This document shows, in pieces, positions 15,656 through 53,102 of a stretch of 64,000 nt of DNA. Under the pieces are notes generated by a model, which saw only the letters and a list, made by a program, of their open reading frames with translations, made no database searches and was not told the DNA's origin. Numbering within the stretch: position 1 is the first letter of the stretch; each line of letters starts with the position of its first letter. A program made the position numbers and the translations under genes. Origin of the DNA: SAR324 cluster bacterium (GTDB taxonomy: Bacteria > SAR324 > NAC60-12); assembly GCA_015232315.1 (NCBI GenBank), contig JADFZZ010000004.1:177414-241413 (forward strand), given 5' to 3'.

Positions 15656-15793
15656 GTAAGCGTTCAGCTTTCAGTATTCAGCTTTCAGTATTTATGCGTT
15701 TCAGAAGCATAATGACTCAATAGCAGAAAATATCGTTTGGCTTCCTGGCCTTGAGAATTCTTGAAAACTGATAGCTGACGACTGAACGCTTAC
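15656..15793. mobile_element. MITE-like repeat (~137 bp), copy 1
   Basis: Ends are GTAAGCGTTCAGC and, after about 137 bases, GCTGA...CTGAACGCTTAC, i.e. terminal inverted repeats. The interior contains CAGCTTTCAGTATT repeated and is about 93% identical to the copy at 29604-29739. It has no coding capacity. It lies upstream of the histidine kinase gene. Confidence 0.85.
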
Positions 15794-17497: not shown

Positions 17498-17628
17498 GAG
17501 GCGATCCGCCGGTCGCCCCTACAACACCAAATATTCGGAAAAACCAATTGTAGGGGCGACCCGCCGGTCGCCCTATCACACACGGAAAAACCAATTGTAG
17601 GGGTGACCAGCCGGTCGCCCTATGACAC
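17498..17628. repeat. Tandem GGGCGACC/GGTCGCCC hairpin repeats, locus 1
   Basis: Three hairpin cores of the form GGGCGACC-CGCC-GGTCGCCC (the first and third diverged) fill the gap between malQ and the CBS gene. The second and third share a 47-base period with the spacer CGGAAAAACCAATTGTAG. The same core with different spacers occurs at 40318-40769 and 49144-49290. Confidence 0.85.
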
Positions 17629-29603: not shown

Positions 29604-29739
29604 AAGCGTTCAGCTTTCAGTATTCAGCTTTCAGTGTTTATGCGCCTCAGAAGCCTTATGACTCAATAGCAGAAAATATCGTTTGGCTTCCAGGCCTTGA
29701 GAATTCCTGAAAACTGATAGCTGACGGCTGAACGCTTAC
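29604..29739. mobile_element. MITE-like repeat (~137 bp), copy 2
   Basis: Nearly identical to 15656-15793, same orientation, with terminal inverted repeats GTAAGCGTTCAGC and GCTGAACGCTTAC. A short ACGTA/TACGT pair flanks it (TACGTAAG... and ...AAAATACGTT), which may reflect a target duplication but is not clean. Confidence 0.85.
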
Positions 29740-40317: not shown

Positions 40318-40545
40318 GATGGCATTCAAACAGGGCGACCGCCGGTCGCCCCTACACATGGTGATGGCATTCAAACAGGGCGACCCGCCGGTCGCCCCTA
40401 CACATGGTGGGATGGCATTCAAACAGGGCGACCCGCCGGTCACCCCCACACATGGTGTGATGGCATTCAAACAGGGCGACCCGCCGGTCACCCCCACACA
40501 TGGTGTGATGGCATTCAAACAGGGCGACCCACTGGTCGTCCAATA
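40318..40545. repeat. Tandem hairpin repeats, locus 2a (five ~48-bp units)
   Basis: Units start at 40318, 40363, 40411, 40459 and 40507 with GATGGCATTCAAACA followed by GGGCGACC-CGCC-GGTCGCCC or variants, and CACATGGTG. The period is 45-48 bases. Variants share compensating changes (for example GGTCACCC twice), showing local amplification. The array is open in several frames but no translation is credible. Confidence 0.9.
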
Positions 40546-40769
40546 GGGCATTAATAATTGTTTTTCATGATTTGATGTAGGGGCGACCCGCCGGTCGCCC
40601 ATTAATGCGCCGGGATAAAATAGAACAATGGCATTAATAATTGTTTTTCATGATTTGATGTAGGGGCGACCCGCTGGTCGTCCAATAGGGCATTAATAAT
40701 TGTTTTTCATGATTTGATGTAGGGGCGACCCGCCGGTCGCCCATTAATGCGCCGGGATAAAATAGAACA
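40546..40769. repeat. Tandem hairpin repeats, locus 2b (82/142-bp units)
   Basis: GGGCATTAATAATTG...TTTTCATGATTTGATGTAG plus the hairpin core recur three times (40546, about 40629, 40688). The first and third copies extend to GCGCCGGGATAAAATAGAACA, giving a 142-base higher-order duplication. It ends at the ribosome binding site of the next gene. Confidence 0.9.
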
Positions 40770-45151: not shown

Positions 45152-47131
45152 TCACGTGATTTGCTCACGTGGATCCATCAAAACGCCAACAGGCGCATGA
45201 AGGTTGGTAAATTGGGAAGAATCCTCAATTTCAAATGAAGCGATGGATTGTTTCAGGTTGTTTGCCAGCACCAGCAACTCATCAGCTTTCTGCCGGGTGA
45301 GGGTGACTCTTTGGGTAAAATCGCTGGAAACTTGCTGGATGTGTTTTATTTTTTCATCCACCTGTCGCACTTCAACAGACACCATGGACGCGTTTTTAGC
45401 GACCTGGTTCAAACCCGTTGTTTCTTCATTGATGCTCCGCACCGCTTCACGGGCCGATACAGAAATTTGCTGGGTATGACTGGAAATTTCCCTCAGTCCG
45501 GTAGTGGCTTCCTGAACGTTCATCAGCGATTCCCTGCTGAACTGGGCCATCTGGCTCACCGTCTTGACCATTTGAGTGGAATGACTGGTTTGTGATTCTA
45601 CGGCCTCATCAATTTTCTGATTGATCTCCATCACTTTTTCGATGATCTCGCTCACATGCTGTGCATGAGAATAAACAGATTCCGTCCTTTTCTGAATTTC
45701 CTGTACATGATTGCCGATTTCATTGTTCACATCCGCGGTCTGGTTGGCCAGGGCTTTGACTTCCGCGGCGACTACCGCAAAGCCTTTGCCTGCTTCTCCC
45801 GCGCTGGCGGCCTCAATCGTGGCGTTCAGGGCCAGCATGTTGGTTTGTGAGGCAATCGAATCAATTTGACGGACGGCCCTGACGATATTGTTGGTCAGTT
45901 CATTCAATTGTCCAACCACCACCAGTGTTTCACCGGAGCTTTTGTTGGCGGATGTTGAAATTTCAGAGGCGTTTTCTGTCAATTTTTCAATGCCGGATAA
46001 GGCGGAGGCCATACTGTTTACAACCTGAAGAATAGAATTTATGTCTGACGAAACTTGATTGATATTGCTTTGAATGCCGCTCATGTTGGCTGATGATTCT
46101 TCCGTTGCGGCCGCCACCATCGTCAGGTTTTCCTGCAAGTTCCCGACAGAAGAACTGGTGGCCGTGGCACTGGAGGATACCTGTTCGGTGGAAGACGCGA
46201 CAGTCTGGATGTTGGCGGCAATATGCCCTGAGGAAGACGCGATGATATTGGCTTCTTTTTGAAGATCTTTGGAATGTTGAGCCATCAGTGCTTCATTTTC
46301 CATGATTTCGTGGGCTGCATGGTCGAGAACAGTGGCATTTTGAGCGATATGCTGGATCATGCCCGAAAGATTTTGGGCCATGTCATTGACATGACTCGCC
46401 ATTGTCCCGATTTCATCTTTCTGGGTCAAGATGACACGATGTCCCAGATTGCCATTACCCAGGCTATGAATGACCTCTGCGATGGAGGATAAGGGCTTGA
46501 TGATCAGTTTCCGGAGAATCAGCGAAATACTCACCAGCAGTAGCATGCCTGAAACCAGAGCCATGACGAATAACTCCTTGCGTAAGGTTGCGGCACTGCT
46601 TTTTTTATAATCCCCGAGTTCCTGCAACACGGTTTCCATGTTGTGTTCGGAACGCTTGATTTTTTTGTTATTGAATTCACTGGTCACCAGCATGACCACT
46701 TCGCCCAGATTTTCTGTGCCCTGTTTTATGGGTTTGCGCAGTTCCCTGACGTTGGGGGTGTTGTCCAACGCTGTTTTGGTCGTCATGGCGTTTCCGCCGG
46801 AATCCACAAAATAGATTCCAAGAAATTCCCGGTCTTTGCTGACTTCGTCCACCAGGGATTCCAGCATGGAAAAATCATAAGTGGAATAAGCCTCAGGCGC
46901 AATGGACGCTAAAAACGTGAGCATCATCTCAGCTTTGTTGTTCAAGGCAATATCCAGTTCCTCTTTAATCTGGGCATTGGCATCTTTCAACGCTGATGCG
47001 CTCTTGTCCATGTACCGATCAAACATCTGGTTCTGATCATTGTCTATCAACCAAAACAAAATAATAAAAATCAGAGACAGAATTCCCAACAAAAATATAT
47101 TTAATTTTTTGGATAACGAAATGTATGGCAT
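45152..47131 (-). CDS. Methyl-accepting chemotaxis protein
   Basis: About 659 residues from ATG 47131 (AGGA upstream); the TTG-initiated longer frame is rejected. TM1 ([20 protein letters not shown]) and TM2 ([21 protein letters not shown]) flank a periplasmic domain of about 150 residues with a single-Cache-like ending ([15 protein letters not shown]...[14 protein letters not shown]). HAMP follows ([22 protein letters not shown]), then the signalling domain with [20 protein letters not shown] and [15 protein letters not shown]. No C-terminal docking pentapeptide. It is followed by the PstS-like gene, a likely two-gene operon. Confidence 0.93.
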
Positions 47132-47318
47132 GATTTCCTGATGACTCAAAGGTTTTATTCGTTTCAATTGTAATAGCTCGCGCAAATTTCATGCACCCGG
47201 TTTCATGGTAGCAAAATTTGTATTTTCGATACTTGGATAATTTTGATAAATCCAGTTATTTTCCCATAACAAATTTAAGTCTCTTTGGTCAATACTCAAA
47301 GAACTTTGTCATGGCTGT

Positions 47319-47385
47319 GTGCCTGCCCCGGATCAGAGATAACCCACAGGCCCCTACAATTTGTGGCCAAAAACAGGATCAACCC
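47319..47385. repeat. Dispersed repeat, 'GGCCACAAATTGT' family, copy 4
   Basis: Same orientation as copy 1: GTGCCTGCCCCGGATCAG, then CCCCTACAATTTGTGGCC and AAAAACAGGATCAACCCC. It occupies part of the otherwise empty gap between the chemoreceptor and iscR genes. Confidence 0.65.
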
Positions 47386-47462
47386 CGAACTTTGAAATGG
47401 GCCCGATTATACAACAGAAATCATTGTTGCAAAAAAGTCTTTCTTTTCATTATTTATTAAAG

Positions 47463-47481
47463 TAGTACTGTAACGGTACTA
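47463..47481. promoter_or_regulatory. Probable IscR/Rrf2 operator
   Basis: A perfect dyad TAGTAC-TGTAACG-GTACTA centred 34 bases before the iscR start codon. It sits where an Rrf2-family autorepressor would bind. The sequence does not match the E. coli type 1 IscR site closely, so the assignment rests on symmetry and position. Confidence 0.6.
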
Positions 47482-47505
47482 TTAAATCATGACAAAGGAG
47501 GGGAT

Positions 47506-47907
47506 GTGCTGAAACTATCAAAAAAAGTGGATTATGCCATTATTTTACTCATTCACCTGGGGAAATCAGGCAATCCGGTGAGTGCTCAGGAAATTGCGGG
47601 GATGTATCAACTTCCCGGGCCCATGATTGCCAACATTCTGAAACAACTGGCATCCAATCAGATGATCCAGTCCAGAAGGGGACAACAGGGAGGATACCTT
47701 CTGAATAAACTACCTGAGGAAATCACACTGGTTGATGTCATTCAATCCATTGATGGCAATTTCAATCTGGTGGAATGCGCGGATGATGGCGGATGCAGAA
47801 TTTCCGGAAATTGTCCGACCAAAGGTCCTCTGGCGGCGTTGCATAACCAGTTGAAGCAGTTTATGGAAACCATTACACTGGCTTCAATGATTCAACAACA
47901 ATATTAG
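47506..47907 (+). CDS. iscR: Rrf2-family Fe-S regulator IscR
   Basis: 133 residues starting at GTG 47506 with AGGAGG upstream. N-terminal winged helix ([52 protein letters not shown]) and three Cys at residues 91, 97 and 103, the 6-6 spacing of the IscR [2Fe-2S] site. IscR senses cluster sufficiency and usually represses its own isc operon when loaded. It heads iscS-iscU-hscB-hscA here. Confidence 0.93.
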
Positions 47908-47927
47908 AACCCAATGGAGAATTACTC

Positions 47928-49142
47928 ATGAAATTTCCGATTTATCTTGATTACCAGGCCACCACTCCCGTTGATCCCCGGGTGCTTGAGGCCATGCTCC
48001 CGTATTTCACTGAAGTTTATGGCAATGCGGCCAGTAGAAATCATGCTTATGGCTGGAAGGCTGAAAAGATAGTTGAGGATGCGCGGGACAGCATTGGAAC
48101 CGCGATTGGAGCAACCGGGAAAGAAATGGTATTCACCAGCGGAGCCACAGAGTCGAACAATCTGGCAATTCTCGGCGTGGCCGATTTTTACAAAGACAAG
48201 GGCAGGCACATCATCACGGCTCCCACTGAACACAAGGCAGTGATTGATCCCTGCCAGTATCTGGAACAACAGGGTTATGAAATCACGTTTCTGAAAGTAG
48301 ACAAACAAGGTTGTATTGACCTCGATGAATTGCGTCAATCCATTCGTCCAGATACAATTCTGGTGTCCTTGATGGCGGCGAATAATGAAATTGGAACCAT
48401 TCACCCGCTTGAAGAGATCGGTGCCATTACCCGTGAAAAAGGCACGCTGTTCCATTGTGACGCGACTCAGGGTGTGGGGAAAATCCCGATGGATGTGAAC
48501 CGTATGAATATTGATCTTCTGTCCATGTCCGGCCACAAGATTTATGGCCCCAAAGGTATTGGTGCCTTGTATGTCCGCCGAAAAAAACCGCGCGTAAGAA
48601 TTTCACCCCTCATGTTTGGTGGTGGACATGAACGTGGAATGCGTTCAGGAACCTTGAATGTACCGGGAATCGTTGGACTGGCAAAGGCACTGGAATTATG
48701 TGTTCAGGAAATGGATTCTGAAACGGAACGACTCATCAGCTTGCGACAACGATTATATGACAAACTGGCCGCTGAACTGGATTATCTGTTCATCAATGGA
48801 CATCCAGTGGATCGTTTGCCGGGCAATCTCAACATCAGTTTTGCCTTTGTGGAAGGCGAAAGTCTGATCATGGGTATGAGTGACATTTGTGTTTCCTCTG
48901 GTTCAGCCTGCACCTCTGCCAGCCTGGAACCATCTTATGTCCTGAGGGCACTGGGGGTTGGCGATGATCTGGCGCATTCTTCCATTCGGTTTGGTATGGG
49001 ACGGTTCACTACCATGGAAGAAATTGATTACACCGCGACCAGGGTGATTGACGCGGTCAAACGTTTGCGGGAAATGTCCCCGTTGTACGAAATGGTTCTG
49101 GAAGGTGTTGATTTATCCACCGTTCAATGGAGTTCACATTAA
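47928..49142 (+). CDS. iscS: Cysteine desulfurase IscS
   Basis: 404 residues, the standard length. Pyridoxal-phosphate Lys in [19 protein letters not shown], His in [25 protein letters not shown] near the N-terminus, and the active-site Cys in [23 protein letters not shown]. It delivers sulfur from Cys to IscU and other acceptors such as ThiI. It follows iscR by 20 bases. Confidence 0.97.
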
Positions 49143-49143
49143 C

Positions 49144-49290
49144 GTAGGGGCGACCCGCCGGTCGCCCTAAAACAGGCACAACAAAATGACCACATCAACG
49201 TAGGGGCGACCCGCCGGTCGCCCTGAAATTGGCACAACAAAATGACCGCATTAACGTAGGGGCGACCCGCCGGTCGCCCTGAAATTGGCA
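49144..49290. repeat. Three tandem hairpin repeats inside the isc operon, locus 3
   Basis: Hairpin cores GGGCGACC-CGCC-GGTCGCCC at 49148, 49204 and 49260 with a 56-base period and the spacer AAATTGGCACAACAAAATGA or close variants. They fill the whole 171-base gap between the iscS stop and the iscU ribosome binding site. Confidence 0.92.
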
Positions 49291-49313
49291 CAACAACATT
49301 TAAAGAGGTACCT

Positions 49314-49694
49314 ATGGCATACAGTGAAAAAGTAATTGATCATTATAACACACCCCAGAATGTTGGCTCCTTCGCCAAAACGGAAGAAGGGATCGGCACC
49401 GGACTTGTCGGGGCACCTGAATGTGGGGATGTCATGAAACTTCAGATCAAGGTGGAAAACAATGTGATCGTGGACGCAAAATTCAAAACATTTGGCTGCG
49501 GGTCCGCAATCGCCAGTTCCAGTCTTGCAACTGAATGGGTAAAAGGTAAAACACTGGACGAGGCCGCGGCTATTAAAAACACAGAAATTGTTGAGGAATT
49601 GTCGTTGCCACCTGTAAAAATCCACTGTTCGGTGCTGGCGGAAGATGCTATTAAGGCCGCAATTTCCGATTTTCGCAAACGAAGTGAATCCTGA
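49314..49694 (+). CDS. iscU: Fe-S cluster scaffold protein IscU
   Basis: 126 residues. Three cluster Cys in GAPECGDVM, KTFGCGSAIASSS and KIHCSVLAEDAI, with the Asp after the first Cys and the LPPVK motif recognised by HscA. Clusters are assembled here with sulfur from IscS. Ribosome binding site AAAGAGG. Followed 23 bases on by hscB. Confidence 0.97.
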   Translation: MAYSEKVIDHYNTPQNVGSFAKTEEGIGTGLVGAPECGDVMKLQIKVENNVIVDAKFKTFGCGSAIASSSLATEWVKGKTLDEAAAIKNTEIVEELSLPPVKIHCSVLAEDAIKAAISDFRKRSES

Positions 49695-49717
49695 TAACCA
49701 TCTGTCTTGGCCGTGCG

Positions 49718-50344
49718 ATGATTCATTCCGCTGAACCTGTCGTTTGTACAGGGTGCAAAAATACTTTGCTGTCGCCCCTGTACTGTTTTTCATGTTCGGT
49801 ATTCCAGCATTTGAGCTCGCGTCCCAACTATTACGCAATTTTTGGAATTCCTTACACCTATAATATCCGGCCCAAACAGTTGGAACTCATGTTCCATAAA
49901 CTGGCGACAGAATTGCATCCGGATTTTTATCTCACCGCGACTCCAGATGTTAAAAAACAGAGCGAAGAAGCCTCCGCCCTGCTGAATCGTGCCTATGAAA
50001 CCCTGCGATCTCCCGGAACAAGAGCCGCCTATCTGATGGGCTTGCTGGCACAGGATCAACATCTTGATGAAAAACAACTTCCAGAGGGCTTCCTAGAACA
50101 CATGTTTGAACTTCAGGAAAATCTGGATGAACAAATCGACAATGACAACAAACAAGCCATTGCTGAAATGAAAACTGACATAGAAACACAATGGCAAAAT
50201 CTGCTTAGCGAATATCCAACACTGTTCAGTGAACTTGAGCGGGAAAACCCCCTGGATCCCAAACAACTTCAAACCATTCAGACCCATTTAAACGCGGAAC
50301 GCTATCTCAAACGATTGCTGGAGCGTATCGCTCTTTACCTCTAA
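49718..50344 (+). CDS. hscB: J-domain co-chaperone HscB with N-terminal zinc-finger-like Cys pairs
   Basis: 208 residues. The J-domain is about residues 37-110 (YYAIFGIPYTYNI, LHPDFY with the HPD motif) and the C-terminal HscB oligomerisation helices follow. The N-terminal 30 residues add two CxxC pairs (VVCTGCKN and YCFSCSVF), as in eukaryotic HSC20 and unlike E. coli HscB. It brings IscU to HscA and stimulates its ATPase. The ATG lies just past the iscU stop. Confidence 0.9.
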   Translation: MIHSAEPVVCTGCKNTLLSPLYCFSCSVFQHLSSRPNYYAIFGIPYTYNIRPKQLELMFHKLATELHPDFYLTATPDVKKQSEEASALLNRAYETLRSPGTRAAYLMGLLAQDQHLDEKQLPEGFLEHMFELQENLDEQIDNDNKQAIAEMKTDIETQWQNLLSEYPTLFSELERENPLDPKQLQTIQTHLNAERYLKRLLERIALYL

Positions 50345-50375
50345 CCTCAGATTCACCTCTCAACGGTATCGTTTC

Positions 50376-52214
50376 ATGGAAGAACGGATTATAGGCATTG
50401 ATTTAGGCACCACCAACAGTTTATCTGCCACCGTGTTTGAAGATGGCCCTGAAGTGATTTGTCTGGATCAGGAAAATCCCATCACGCCGTCCTTGTTATG
50501 TCATGATGGTGAAAAATGGATTGTGGGTGAAGAGGCCAAGCCTTATCGGTTCTCCAATCCTGAGTCTACGGTTTACTCGGTAAAACGCCTTATGGGCCGT
50601 GATATTTCAGAGGTTGAAGCAGAATTGGAACAACTCCCGTATCAGGTGGTTGCCGCACAACGGAAACTGGTCAAGGTACGCTTGGGTCAGCGGGAATTCA
50701 CGCCGCAGGAAGTGTCTGCCGAGATTCTTAAAAAAGTAAAACAGCGTGCAGAACAAGCCTTGGGCCAAACGGTGACCAAAGCAGTCATCACGGTTCCGGC
50801 CTATTTTGATGACGCTCAACGCCAGGCAACCCGGGATGCCGCAAAAATTGCCGGACTGGATGCTGTTCGAATCATCAATGAACCCACTGCCGCGGCCATC
50901 GCTTATGGGCTGGATGAAAAAAAAGAAGGCATTGTCGTGGTTTATGACCTGGGAGGGGGCACATTTGATGTTTCTGTACTCAGTCTGACCGGGAAACTGT
51001 TTAAAGTCGTATCCACGCATGGTGATACTCGCTTGGGCGGTGATGATTTTGACCAGGCCCTGACAGGTTATTTTCATAAAAAAATTCTTGAGAAATATCC
51101 TGACATATCCCTGGTGGATTCTTTTGCCCGCCAGACACTCAAGGATGCTGCTGAAACCATAAAATTCCGACTGAGCACCCAACCTGAAACCACGTATCAC
51201 ATTGACTTGGCTGACCGGAAAATTCATTTGGATGGCACCATCACTGTCGAAGAATTCAATGCGATGATTGACCCCTGGATTCAAAAAACCATCCTGAGTT
51301 GCGGACACGCCCTTCGAAACGCGGGTATTTCCGTGGCGGAAGTGGATGATATCGTCATGGTCGGTGGCTCAACCGTGATTCCGTATGTGCGCAAAAAAGT
51401 CACCGAATTTTTTGGTAAAAAACTGCATGTCGCCATTGATCCGTACAAGGTGGTCGCCATTGGGGCCGGCATCCAGGGACATCTTCTGGCTGGCGGACGA
51501 CGTGATTTTCTGCTGCTGGATGTCATTCCCCTGTCTCTCGGAATTGAAACCCTCGGTGGTACCTTCAGCAAACTCATCATGCAGAACACCACGATCCCCA
51601 CACAAGCCAGTGAAATGTTCACGACCCATGTGGACAACCAAACCGCGATCGACATCAATATCTATCAGGGCGAGCGGGAGCTGGTGAGTGATTGTCGCTA
51701 TCTGGGGCAATTCAAATTGAGGGGAATTCCACCGATGCCGGGCGGATTGCCGTTGATGGAAGTGACCTTCAAGGTAGATGCCAATGGAATTCTGACTGTT
51801 TCAGCCCTGGAAAAACGCAGTGGCCAACAGACTGAAATTGAAATCATTCCGTTTCATGGTCTCACACGCCGGGAAATTGACAAAATCATGGAGGATTCCT
51901 TTGAGCATGCCATGGAGGACTTTAAAAACCGGCAGTTGATTGAATTTCGTCAAACGGTAGACCGGGTTCTTGGTGGAATCCGGAAATTCTGGGACCTGGC
52001 CGAAAAAACCTTGTCACCTGAGAGACTGGAAGCCATTCGCCAACAGATGGATGTGGTTCTAACTGCCGCCAAAGGTGAGGATCCACAATATCTCAAACAG
52101 GAAATGGATCGATTGGGTGAATACACACGGGTTCTGGCAGACACAGCCATTGGACAGCAGGTTCTGAGAGAATTGAAAAAAGCTGACGAATTGCCATCCC
52201 CCGCAAATGAGTGA
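50376..52214 (+). CDS. hscA: Hsp70-type chaperone HscA
   Basis: 612 residues, close to E. coli HscA (616) and shorter than DnaK. ATPase signatures [26 protein letters not shown] and [16 protein letters not shown]; substrate-binding domain [14 protein letters not shown] with a short lid. The operon position after hscB supports HscA rather than DnaK. It recognises IscU and drives cluster transfer. No iscA, fdx or iscX follows within the window. Confidence 0.95.
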
Positions 52215-52279
52215 TCCTTCCTGACAGAATTCCACAGTTTTCCATCAAACCTCTTCGATCCCTCAGGGACGGCAAAAGA

Positions 52280-52466
52280 ATAAGTTGTAAAAGTTTGCTC
52301 CTACGTCCCGTGGGGCACGCTATCCCTCAGGCGAAGCTCTGCTTCGCACCCACCTCCGGTGGGTCATGGAACGGTTACGAACGGGACGTTCGTAACCAGA
52401 AAGTTTTCTCTGTTATTTTTTGAACGTTCCTAAGGGAAGTAGGGCGAGCAAACTTTTACAACTTAT
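52280..52466. mobile_element. 187-bp MITE-like element with perfect 21-bp terminal inverted repeats
   Basis: Ends begin ATAAGTTGTAAAAG...GCTC and finish GAGC...CTTTTACAACTTAT, perfectly complementary over 21 bases. The interior is highly structured: GCGAAGC-tct-GCTTCGC, CCCACC-tcc-GGTGGG and GGTTACGAAC-gggac-GTTCGTAACC. No coding capacity. A truncated relative lies at 12787-12870. Confidence 0.88.
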
Positions 52467-52742
52467 GTTATTTCGTTCCTAAATATTTGAAAATTTGGTG
52501 AATTTTAAAATTGTTGTTTAAGATTCAATTTTTTATTTGACCAAATGAAAGGGGAACTGTTATTGCCCATAGTGATTGCGTTTCTTTTTCTGCAATTAAT
52601 CCTGAAAATGAATCGTAACAACAGATGTGCCATTTTCCAAAATAATTAAATGATTAATACTTGTGCTTAATGGGGTTGAATGACTAATGTCGCTACAGAA
52701 TTCAATTCTGGATACTGGCAAAACATTCTGGGGAGTCAGCTT

Positions 52743-53102
52743 ATGCGTGTGCTCGTGATAGACGATGAGCAGATCATTAGAAACATGTTGAGTGCCTATT
52801 TGACGAAACAGGGGTATGAAGTTCAAACCGCTGAAAACGGTGAAGAAGGCACCACCATTTTTTATCAGGATCCGAATCTGTTCAACCTGATCATCACAGA
52901 TCTTCAAATGCCTAAAATGAACGGAATAGAATTTTTAACCAAAATCCGGGGTGATGGCTATAACACTCCGGCCGTAGTTGTCACAGGTCATTTGCATCTG
53001 GCGGAATCCGAAGAAATCAATGCTTTGCAGGTGATGCAACTCGTGAATAAACCATTCAAACTGTCGCTTATCAAAAGCCTGATTGATAAACTCCCGCATT
53101 GA
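52743..53102 (+). CDS. Single-domain response regulator (CheY-like)
   Basis: 119 residues from ATG 52743 (GGGGAG upstream); the longer frame from 52680 adds residues without family support. A receiver only: RVLVIDDEQIIR with the acidic pair, phospho-Asp in LIITDLQMPKMNG, Thr/Ser switch VVVTGH, and Lys in LVNKPFK. It could serve either chemosensory kinase or the orphan kinase at 13178. No output domain. Confidence 0.9.
   Translation: MRVLVIDDEQIIRNMLSAYLTKQGYEVQTAENGEEGTTIFYQDPNLFNLIITDLQMPKMNGIEFLTKIRGDGYNTPAVVVTGHLHLAESEEINALQVMQLVNKPFKLSLIKSLIDKLPH

Follow-up and report, generated by a model that had tools for sequence, protein, structure and literature searches.

The gap between iscS and iscU in the isc operon of a SAR324 cluster bacterium holds three hairpins. 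Are they a special switch of iron-sulfur cluster assembly, or repeat DNA that settled behind a housekeeping gene? We analysed the locus within a stretch of 64,000 nucleotides (the window), to which all plain coordinates refer. The operon lies on the forward strand and is headed by an Rrf2-family, IscR-like regulator (47506..47907), which matches TIGR00738 with 102.5 bits (cut-off 73.3) and the IscR model TIGR02010 with 66.6 bits, under its cut-off of 207.55. After a spacing of 20 nt follows iscS (47928..49142), a cysteine desulfurase gene by profile match (NF010611, 648.5 bits with a cut-off of 548; TIGR02006, 634.3 bits, just under its 643.2). The Fe-S scaffold gene iscU (49314..49694; TIGR01999, 210.6 bits, cut-off 192.4), an hscB-like co-chaperone gene (49718..50344; at best 64.2 bits, under the cut-offs of all models shown), and an hscA-like chaperone gene (50376..52214; NF003520, 668.6 bits, cut-off 620) complete it.

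The original prediction of three identical hairpins between iscS and iscU holds: the 24-nt hairpin GTAGGGGCGACCCGCCGGTCGCCC is the same in all three copies, and 171 nt separate the iscS stop from the iscU start. The hairpins belong to three tandem units of 56 bp on the forward strand, which fill positions 49135-49302 and whose spacers differ by a few bases. Unit 1 (49135..49190) comprises the last codons and the stop of iscS (CACATTAAC), a hairpin at 49144-49167, and a spacer. Unit 2 (49191..49246; hairpin at 49200-49223) is 93% identical to unit 1, and unit 3 (49247..49302; hairpin at 49256-49279) is 86% identical to it and continues into the unique iscU leader. The iscS end recurs in units 2 and 3 as CACATCAAC and CGCATTAAC, with one mismatch each in 9 nt, which suggests that the duplication came after the insertion. 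A GTAG foot (49144..49147, forward strand) opens the first hairpin, separated by one base (49143) from the iscS stop TAA (49140-49142); the predicted stem begins at 49147, the fifth base after the stop. Folding of 58-nt pieces gives each hairpin a 9-bp stem and a 4-nt loop, with energies of −18.4, −19.8, and −19.7 kcal/mol for hairpins 1, 2, and 3 (z −2.33, −2.66, and −2.33), and the whole iscS-iscU junction folds at z of about −4. The motif AAAGAGG (49302..49308, forward strand), read from the sequence as the likely ribosome binding site of iscU, lies outside the third hairpin and is likely left free by it. Pairing of the third-hairpin foot with CCUAUG at the iscU start was not found beyond chance (z −1.09).

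Strong GC-rich hairpins between genes may act as intrinsic terminators or as an attenuator. We regard this as very improbable here because a T-run is absent behind all three hairpins and a terminator scan of 47100-50500 lists none at the array; for a regulatory RNA, an Rfam scan of 46500-53000 at the gathering threshold, which also served as the search for small RNAs, returned no family. The regular 56-nt period of three 24-nt palindromic repeats also recalls a short CRISPR array. The spacers, however, are copies of one another, the units being 86–93% identical, and at other loci the repeat has other periods. The homologous spacers refute this candidate, and we give it practically no credence.

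Instead, the hairpin proved to be a dispersed repeat. Within the window, the 24-mer has nine matches at up to three mismatches against none in 100 shuffles, and six of the nine sit at two places outside the isc gap. One is a cluster of three copies with a 47-bp tandem unit (17499..17620), and the other a cluster of at least seven copies in both orientations with 48- and 59-bp units (40318..40743). In the 5.25-Mb assembly of this genome, which is 95% complete, the 24-mer has 94 strand-wise matches at up to three mismatches, and a reversed-pattern control has none. Counted with the hairpin core at up to four mismatches, 80 copies lie in 32 clusters, a count taken at the 32 places found with the 24-mer, so that more degenerate copies elsewhere would be missed. 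Such many dispersed copies per genome are also a mark of the GTAG REP elements considered below.

These counts bear on one alternative, that the array is a selected, isc-specific post-transcriptional element which sets the IscS:IscU ratio or protects the iscRS mRNA under iron stress. In its favor, the three hairpins are identical and their spacers differ, and hairpin 1 lies close behind iscS. Its stem begins at the fifth base after the stop, and REPs at a distance of up to 15 nt are described to lower translation in E. coli (PMC12306157). Against it, the same repeat occurs at 31 other clusters of this genome. Since a dispersed repeat of 80 copies is at hand, the presence of the hairpins needs no isc-specific role. 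Selection on the hairpin is not evident from divergence either: within arrays, hairpins differ at 7 of 240 positions and spacers at 28 of 461, which is not significant (p 0.10; full spacers, 12 overlapping comparisons from eight arrays, with L040 left out for its non-homologous spacers). A larger contrast in the same direction (10/440 versus 119/1257) was discarded as biased, as the spacers had been extended into non-homologous edges.

How the arrays are built can be read from their spacers. A neighbour at 160 nt or less was found for 66 of the 80 copies, with homologous spacers in 26 neighbour pairs; for the foreign stretches, among the matches listed, the corresponding figures are 28 of 162 copies and two pairs. 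Spacers and periods are specific to each site, and the periods of simple arrays range from 44 to 85 bp (for example 44, 48, 50, 53, 56, 64, and 85 bp). Arrays are therefore formed when the DNA surrounding a REP is duplicated on the spot. Another REP subfamily of this genome (G000) with the GTAGGGGC head, of stem AATTCGGGAATT, forms a tandem array with a 60-bp unit at L340 (G000:C12:35900-36300); hence, local amplification is not limited to one stem.

The clusters are placed as expected for REPs. According to a home-made gene caller, the neighbouring genes are co-directional for 19 of the 32 clusters, convergent for 6, and divergent for 5, and 2 clusters lie inside a called gene. Among the 25 clusters facing the 3' end of a gene, 8 are at most 2 nt, 9 at most 5 nt, and 13 at most 15 nt away from the stop codon, where an even spread over the gap predicts 3.6, 4.8, and 7.3 (p 0.005, 0.008, and 0.002). 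At L033, L046, and L050 (L050:5422), the TAG of the REP foot is itself the stop codon of the upstream frame. Most clusters are thus intergenic, flanked by genes that point the same way or towards each other, and close to 3' ends.

This is the picture drawn for the GTAG-tagged REP families, which are described as close to 3' ends, with GTAG sometimes serving as the stop codon (Di Nocera, De Gregorio and Rocco 2013, PMC3733652). As in that description, the isc hairpin is a palindrome of 20–40 bp with GTAG at one end, it is present in many copies, and these lie mostly between co-directional or convergent genes near 3' ends. Large clusters of GTAG REPs are described there as tandem reiterations with flanking DNA of variable length (PMC3733652), and head-to-tail tandem arrays are common in this genome. 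The likeness rests on the described features and not on the 24 consensus sequences of PMC3733652. With a high degree of confidence, we thus read the isc array as a GTAG-type REP element that was multiplied locally in tandem, a form of mobile repeat DNA.

The genome contains further small repeats. Several hairpin families with the GTAGGGGC head, which was fixed by the search pattern, coexist in it. One dispersed element consists of two opposed GTAGGGGC hairpins of 26 nt bounded by inverted GGGGTTGGTCA ends, and the piece CCCCTACAATTTGTGGCCAAAAACAGGATCAACCCC at 47351-47386, upstream of the iscR-like gene, resembles by eye one end of it (compare L336-L339). Four copies with two opposed GTAGGGGC hairpins about 200 bp apart were seen at L332-L335 (G000:C11:45709, C15:78187, C20:32492, C29:58667); their conserved inside contains AATCCCCCTTTTCAAAGGGGG and looks by eye like another small element lying within the first one. 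At L001:1-1000 (the start of G000:C2), a truncated IS200-like transposase gene lies beside an inverted repeat, about 60 bp long by eye, and other small hairpin repeats (TAGCCCAGCGATTGATCGCTGGG). At 15663-15692 and again far away at 29609-29635, the window contains one and the same 14-bp tandem unit, TTCAGCTTTCAGTA.

The gap in relatives speaks for the same reading. We examined 50 iscU loci, and iscS lies directly upstream in 43 of them, namely the present locus, one duplicate, and 41 others; the genome sets searched contained no second genome of the same genus. None of the 41 other loci has the isc-type repeat in a gap that ranges from 9 to 243 nt. In 24 of them, the gap is 37 nt or shorter, which argues against a selected isc-specific element, and the six iscS-iscU gaps of genus g2, whose IscU is among the most alike, measure 65–68 nt. 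At up to two mismatches, the 24-mer was found in 1 of the 57 other genomes of the relatives set (G033), with a single match. In most loci, the alignment with the IscS of the relatives spans the 404 residues in full or almost in full, so that the insertion did not truncate IscS.

One relative deserves separate mention. In G034, which belongs to another family of the same order, the iscS-iscU gap (L081, G034:C47:1780-1857) carries three tandem hairpins TGCGGGCCGGGGCCCGTACC with a 29-nt unit and of unrelated sequence. This hairpin was not found elsewhere in G034 at up to two mismatches, and G035 and G039 have one match each. When all gaps of at least 60 nt were folded (17 loci), z fell below −3 in three: the present genome, G034, and G033. 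Both observations can be placed in favor of a selected isc element. On the other side, the motifs of the G033 gap recur in a 400-kb sample of that genome (9, 6, 2, and 12 matches for four motifs, with mismatches allowed and no chance control). The unrelated triple hairpin of G034 gives a weak hint that structure in the iscS-iscU gap may be favoured, and the evidence from structured gaps is a hint only because the folding had no matched control of other gaps. Taken with the dispersal of the repeat, we consider a selected, isc-specific element unlikely.

The REP itself reaches far beyond this lineage. We counted at least 119 stretches with the exact 24-mer (two positions as S); their titles, as we read them, carry about 19 names of phylum level, and the carriers include the strains Desulfosarcina widdelii PP31 and Thermalbibacter longus CFH 74404. 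Nearly all other stretches with the 24-mer are metagenome-assembled, so that single cross-phylum cases could be binning errors. In 38 of 40 repeat-bearing genomes (39 chosen from the listed stretches plus the present one), the 24-mer has at least two strand-wise matches, a perfect palindrome being counted on both strands; the remaining two have one match. An exact-string literature search for GTAGGGGCGA found no related publication as judged by titles.

In other organisms, the core is often the 28-bp palindrome GTAGGGGCGACCGGCCGGTCGCCCCTAC. We inspected the feet in 137 copies outside this genome, taken from the matches listed at up to two mismatches after removal of duplicate and cut-off copies. 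Both feet (GTAG...CTAC) are present in 66 of them, a single foot in 65, and neither foot in 6. Directly outside the 28 bp, conservation drops to 27–39% per position, i.e., these positions are not conserved. The search pattern accounts for part of the conservation seen in the first foot and the core, but not for the conserved second foot or the unconserved flanks. In the present genome, both feet were found in 1 of the 80 copies, one foot in 72, and none in 7.

The REP was most likely copied as single-stranded DNA by a Y1 transposase, a RAYT/TnpAREP of the subclass 2.4 kind, an action that we infer from the following comparisons. Subclass 2.4 of TnpAREP, which is group 4 of Bertels in Table 1 of PMC6006769, is described with double-foot REPs and with in-frame REPs inside tnpAREP (Quentin et al. 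2018, PMC6006769). The Y1 domain as such tracks the repeat poorly: Pfam Y1_Tnp was found in 30 of 40 repeat-bearing genomes (28 over the cut-off) versus 29 of 58 in the relatives set. At the 49 Y1 loci first inspected, no isc-type hairpin was found; L274 and L275 have only the GTAGGGGCG head. L275, a Y1 protein from Nitrospira whose frame contains GTAGGGGC hairpins, served as the query for a RAYT clade. This clade is present in 27 of 40 repeat-bearing genomes and in 5 of 58 of the relatives set, with the present genome in both; without it, the figures are 26 of 39 versus 4 of 57 (Fisher 5e-10, for sets unmatched for phylogeny). In those four genomes of the relatives set, the adjoining GTAGGGGC hairpins have other stems. 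This counts against the preferred reading, as does the lack of a hit to the RAYT query in 13 of the 40 repeat-bearing genomes.

A motif search delineated one frame in 21 of 34 RAYT loci and missed 13, among them L276, L280, and L283, in which RAYT frames with hairpins are visible. GTAGGGGC hairpins lie between the HuH and the W motif (or the frame end if there is no W) in 17 of the 21 frames and in the flanks of 16. Where a locus has both, the in-frame stem matches the stem of the flanking REP (at most two differences) in 12 of 13 cases; a control of 2000 shuffles gave a mean of 1.7 and a maximum of 7. This speaks for a stem-specific pairing of RAYT and REP. The isc-type stem itself, in its commoner form GACCGGCCGGTC, lies inside the RAYT frame at L297, L299, L304, and L305. 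In L297 and L299, it encodes GRGDRPVAPT, and in L304 and L305, it is also present in the flank.

In the present genome, the Pfam Y1_Tnp profile hits one gene, without the first 38 model positions. The one complete RAYT, L285:1480-2058, is an open frame of 192 aa with the motifs NHLH, WQ, and YILNNP; it scores 68.1 bits with NF047646 REP_Tyr_transpos (under the cut-off of 80) and 25.8 bits with Pfam Y1_Tnp (above 23). In a PDB search, E. coli TnpArep 4er8 matched with an E value of 0.015; two antibody chains followed at 0.36 and 0.94. Compared with the subclass 2.4 motifs NH[IFV]H, WQ, and YIxNNP, WQ and YILNNP agree, and NHLH has an L outside the set. As in subclass 2.4, a REP is inserted in the frame between the HuH and Y motifs. 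The stem in front of and inside this RAYT, GGTTCGCGAACC, differs from the isc type, which also counts against the preferred reading, and a cognate RAYT for the isc-type stem was not found with two queries in this genome (95% complete). It is possible, if rather doubtful, that L285 moves the isc-type REP in trans by recognizing mainly the GTAG foot, or that a cognate RAYT was present and has since been lost. The open frame with its motifs and the coexistence of several GTAGGGGC-headed families in one genome would fit an action in trans; the match of in-RAYT and flanking stems in 12 of 13 loci elsewhere argues against it.

The family thus differs from the subclass 2.4 REPs described in PMC6006769 in two respects, as its copies are nearly all single-foot and its RAYT bears another stem. 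The first of these is a further point against the preferred reading. Because 1 of the 80 copies is double-footed, compared with 66 of 137 elsewhere, we file the isc element as a GTAG REP related to subclass 2.4 and not as a double-foot REP. The locus is a cross-phylum GTAG REP array in an isc operon; this kind of REP is already known, and the array is new.

The hairpins are therefore best read as mobile repeats behind the iscS stop rather than as a special iron-sulfur switch. In the sequence of events that we propose, one REP, made of a GTAG foot and a hairpin with a 9-bp stem, would have come to lie one base behind the iscS stop. A 56-bp segment comprising 9 nt of the iscS end, 24 nt of REP, and 23 nt of downstream DNA would then have been duplicated twice, probably via slippage or unequal recombination at the hairpin.

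REPs can shield upstream mRNA from 3' decay. The role of the array in the RNA would most likely be that of other intra-operon REPs, i.e., 3' exonucleases would be hindered behind iscRS; the stabilization of mRNA by REPs is named as a hypothesis in PMC3733652. A second effect may concern translation. In E. coli, REPs no more than 15 nt from a stop codon stall ribosomes and lower translation, as reported in PMC12306157 on Liang, Rudd and Deutscher (2015); cleavage of the upstream gene also belongs to the characteristics of such REPs. The isc hairpin likewise lies within 15 nt of the upstream stop, but it is another REP sequence in another organism. The position of hairpin 1, which begins no more than five bases behind the stop like the REPs reported to stall ribosomes, makes an effect on the mRNA plausible. 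The array may slow termination on iscS and would have no dedicated iron-dependent role; the likeliest effects would be a lower yield of IscS and a protection of the iscRS mRNA from 3' decay. Hence, the original prediction of a changed iscS:iscU ratio or a protected iscRS mRNA may be right in kind, and the isc-specific role attached to it is not needed.

The parallel to E. coli that had been drawn at the iscS-iscU junction was misplaced. There, the site at which RyhB binds the iscRSUA message lies upstream of iscS, and the portion with iscR remains stable (PMC5040110); this differential decay is credited to Desnoyers (2009). Consequently, the parallel concerns the iscR-iscS junction. The two cases share an isc operon with a possible decay boundary, but the boundary described for E. 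coli is upstream of iscS and depends on a small RNA, whereas the hairpins of the present operon are downstream of iscS. No tie of the array to iron was seen in the analyses made.

What appeared to be an isc-specific regulatory structure thus becomes a case of mobile repeat DNA in a housekeeping operon. It is also a clean example of a REP sequence common across phyla together with a transposase family that is able to carry the REP in frame. A bolder view, to which we assign little probability, would be that the palindrome GTAGGGGCGACCGGCCGGTCGCCCCTAC travelled nearly unchanged through about 19 phyla with a transposase carrying it in frame and now multiplies in tandem here, single-footed and without a detected cognate transposase. 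Arrays behind stop codons would then be copy-number dials for operon output; at isc they would set IscS against IscU, in a gap for which another genome has come up with a triple hairpin of unrelated sequence. Should the arrays indeed act on mRNA decay or termination, changing the number of units would offer a simple and evolvable means of adjusting the ratio of two proteins encoded by one mRNA.
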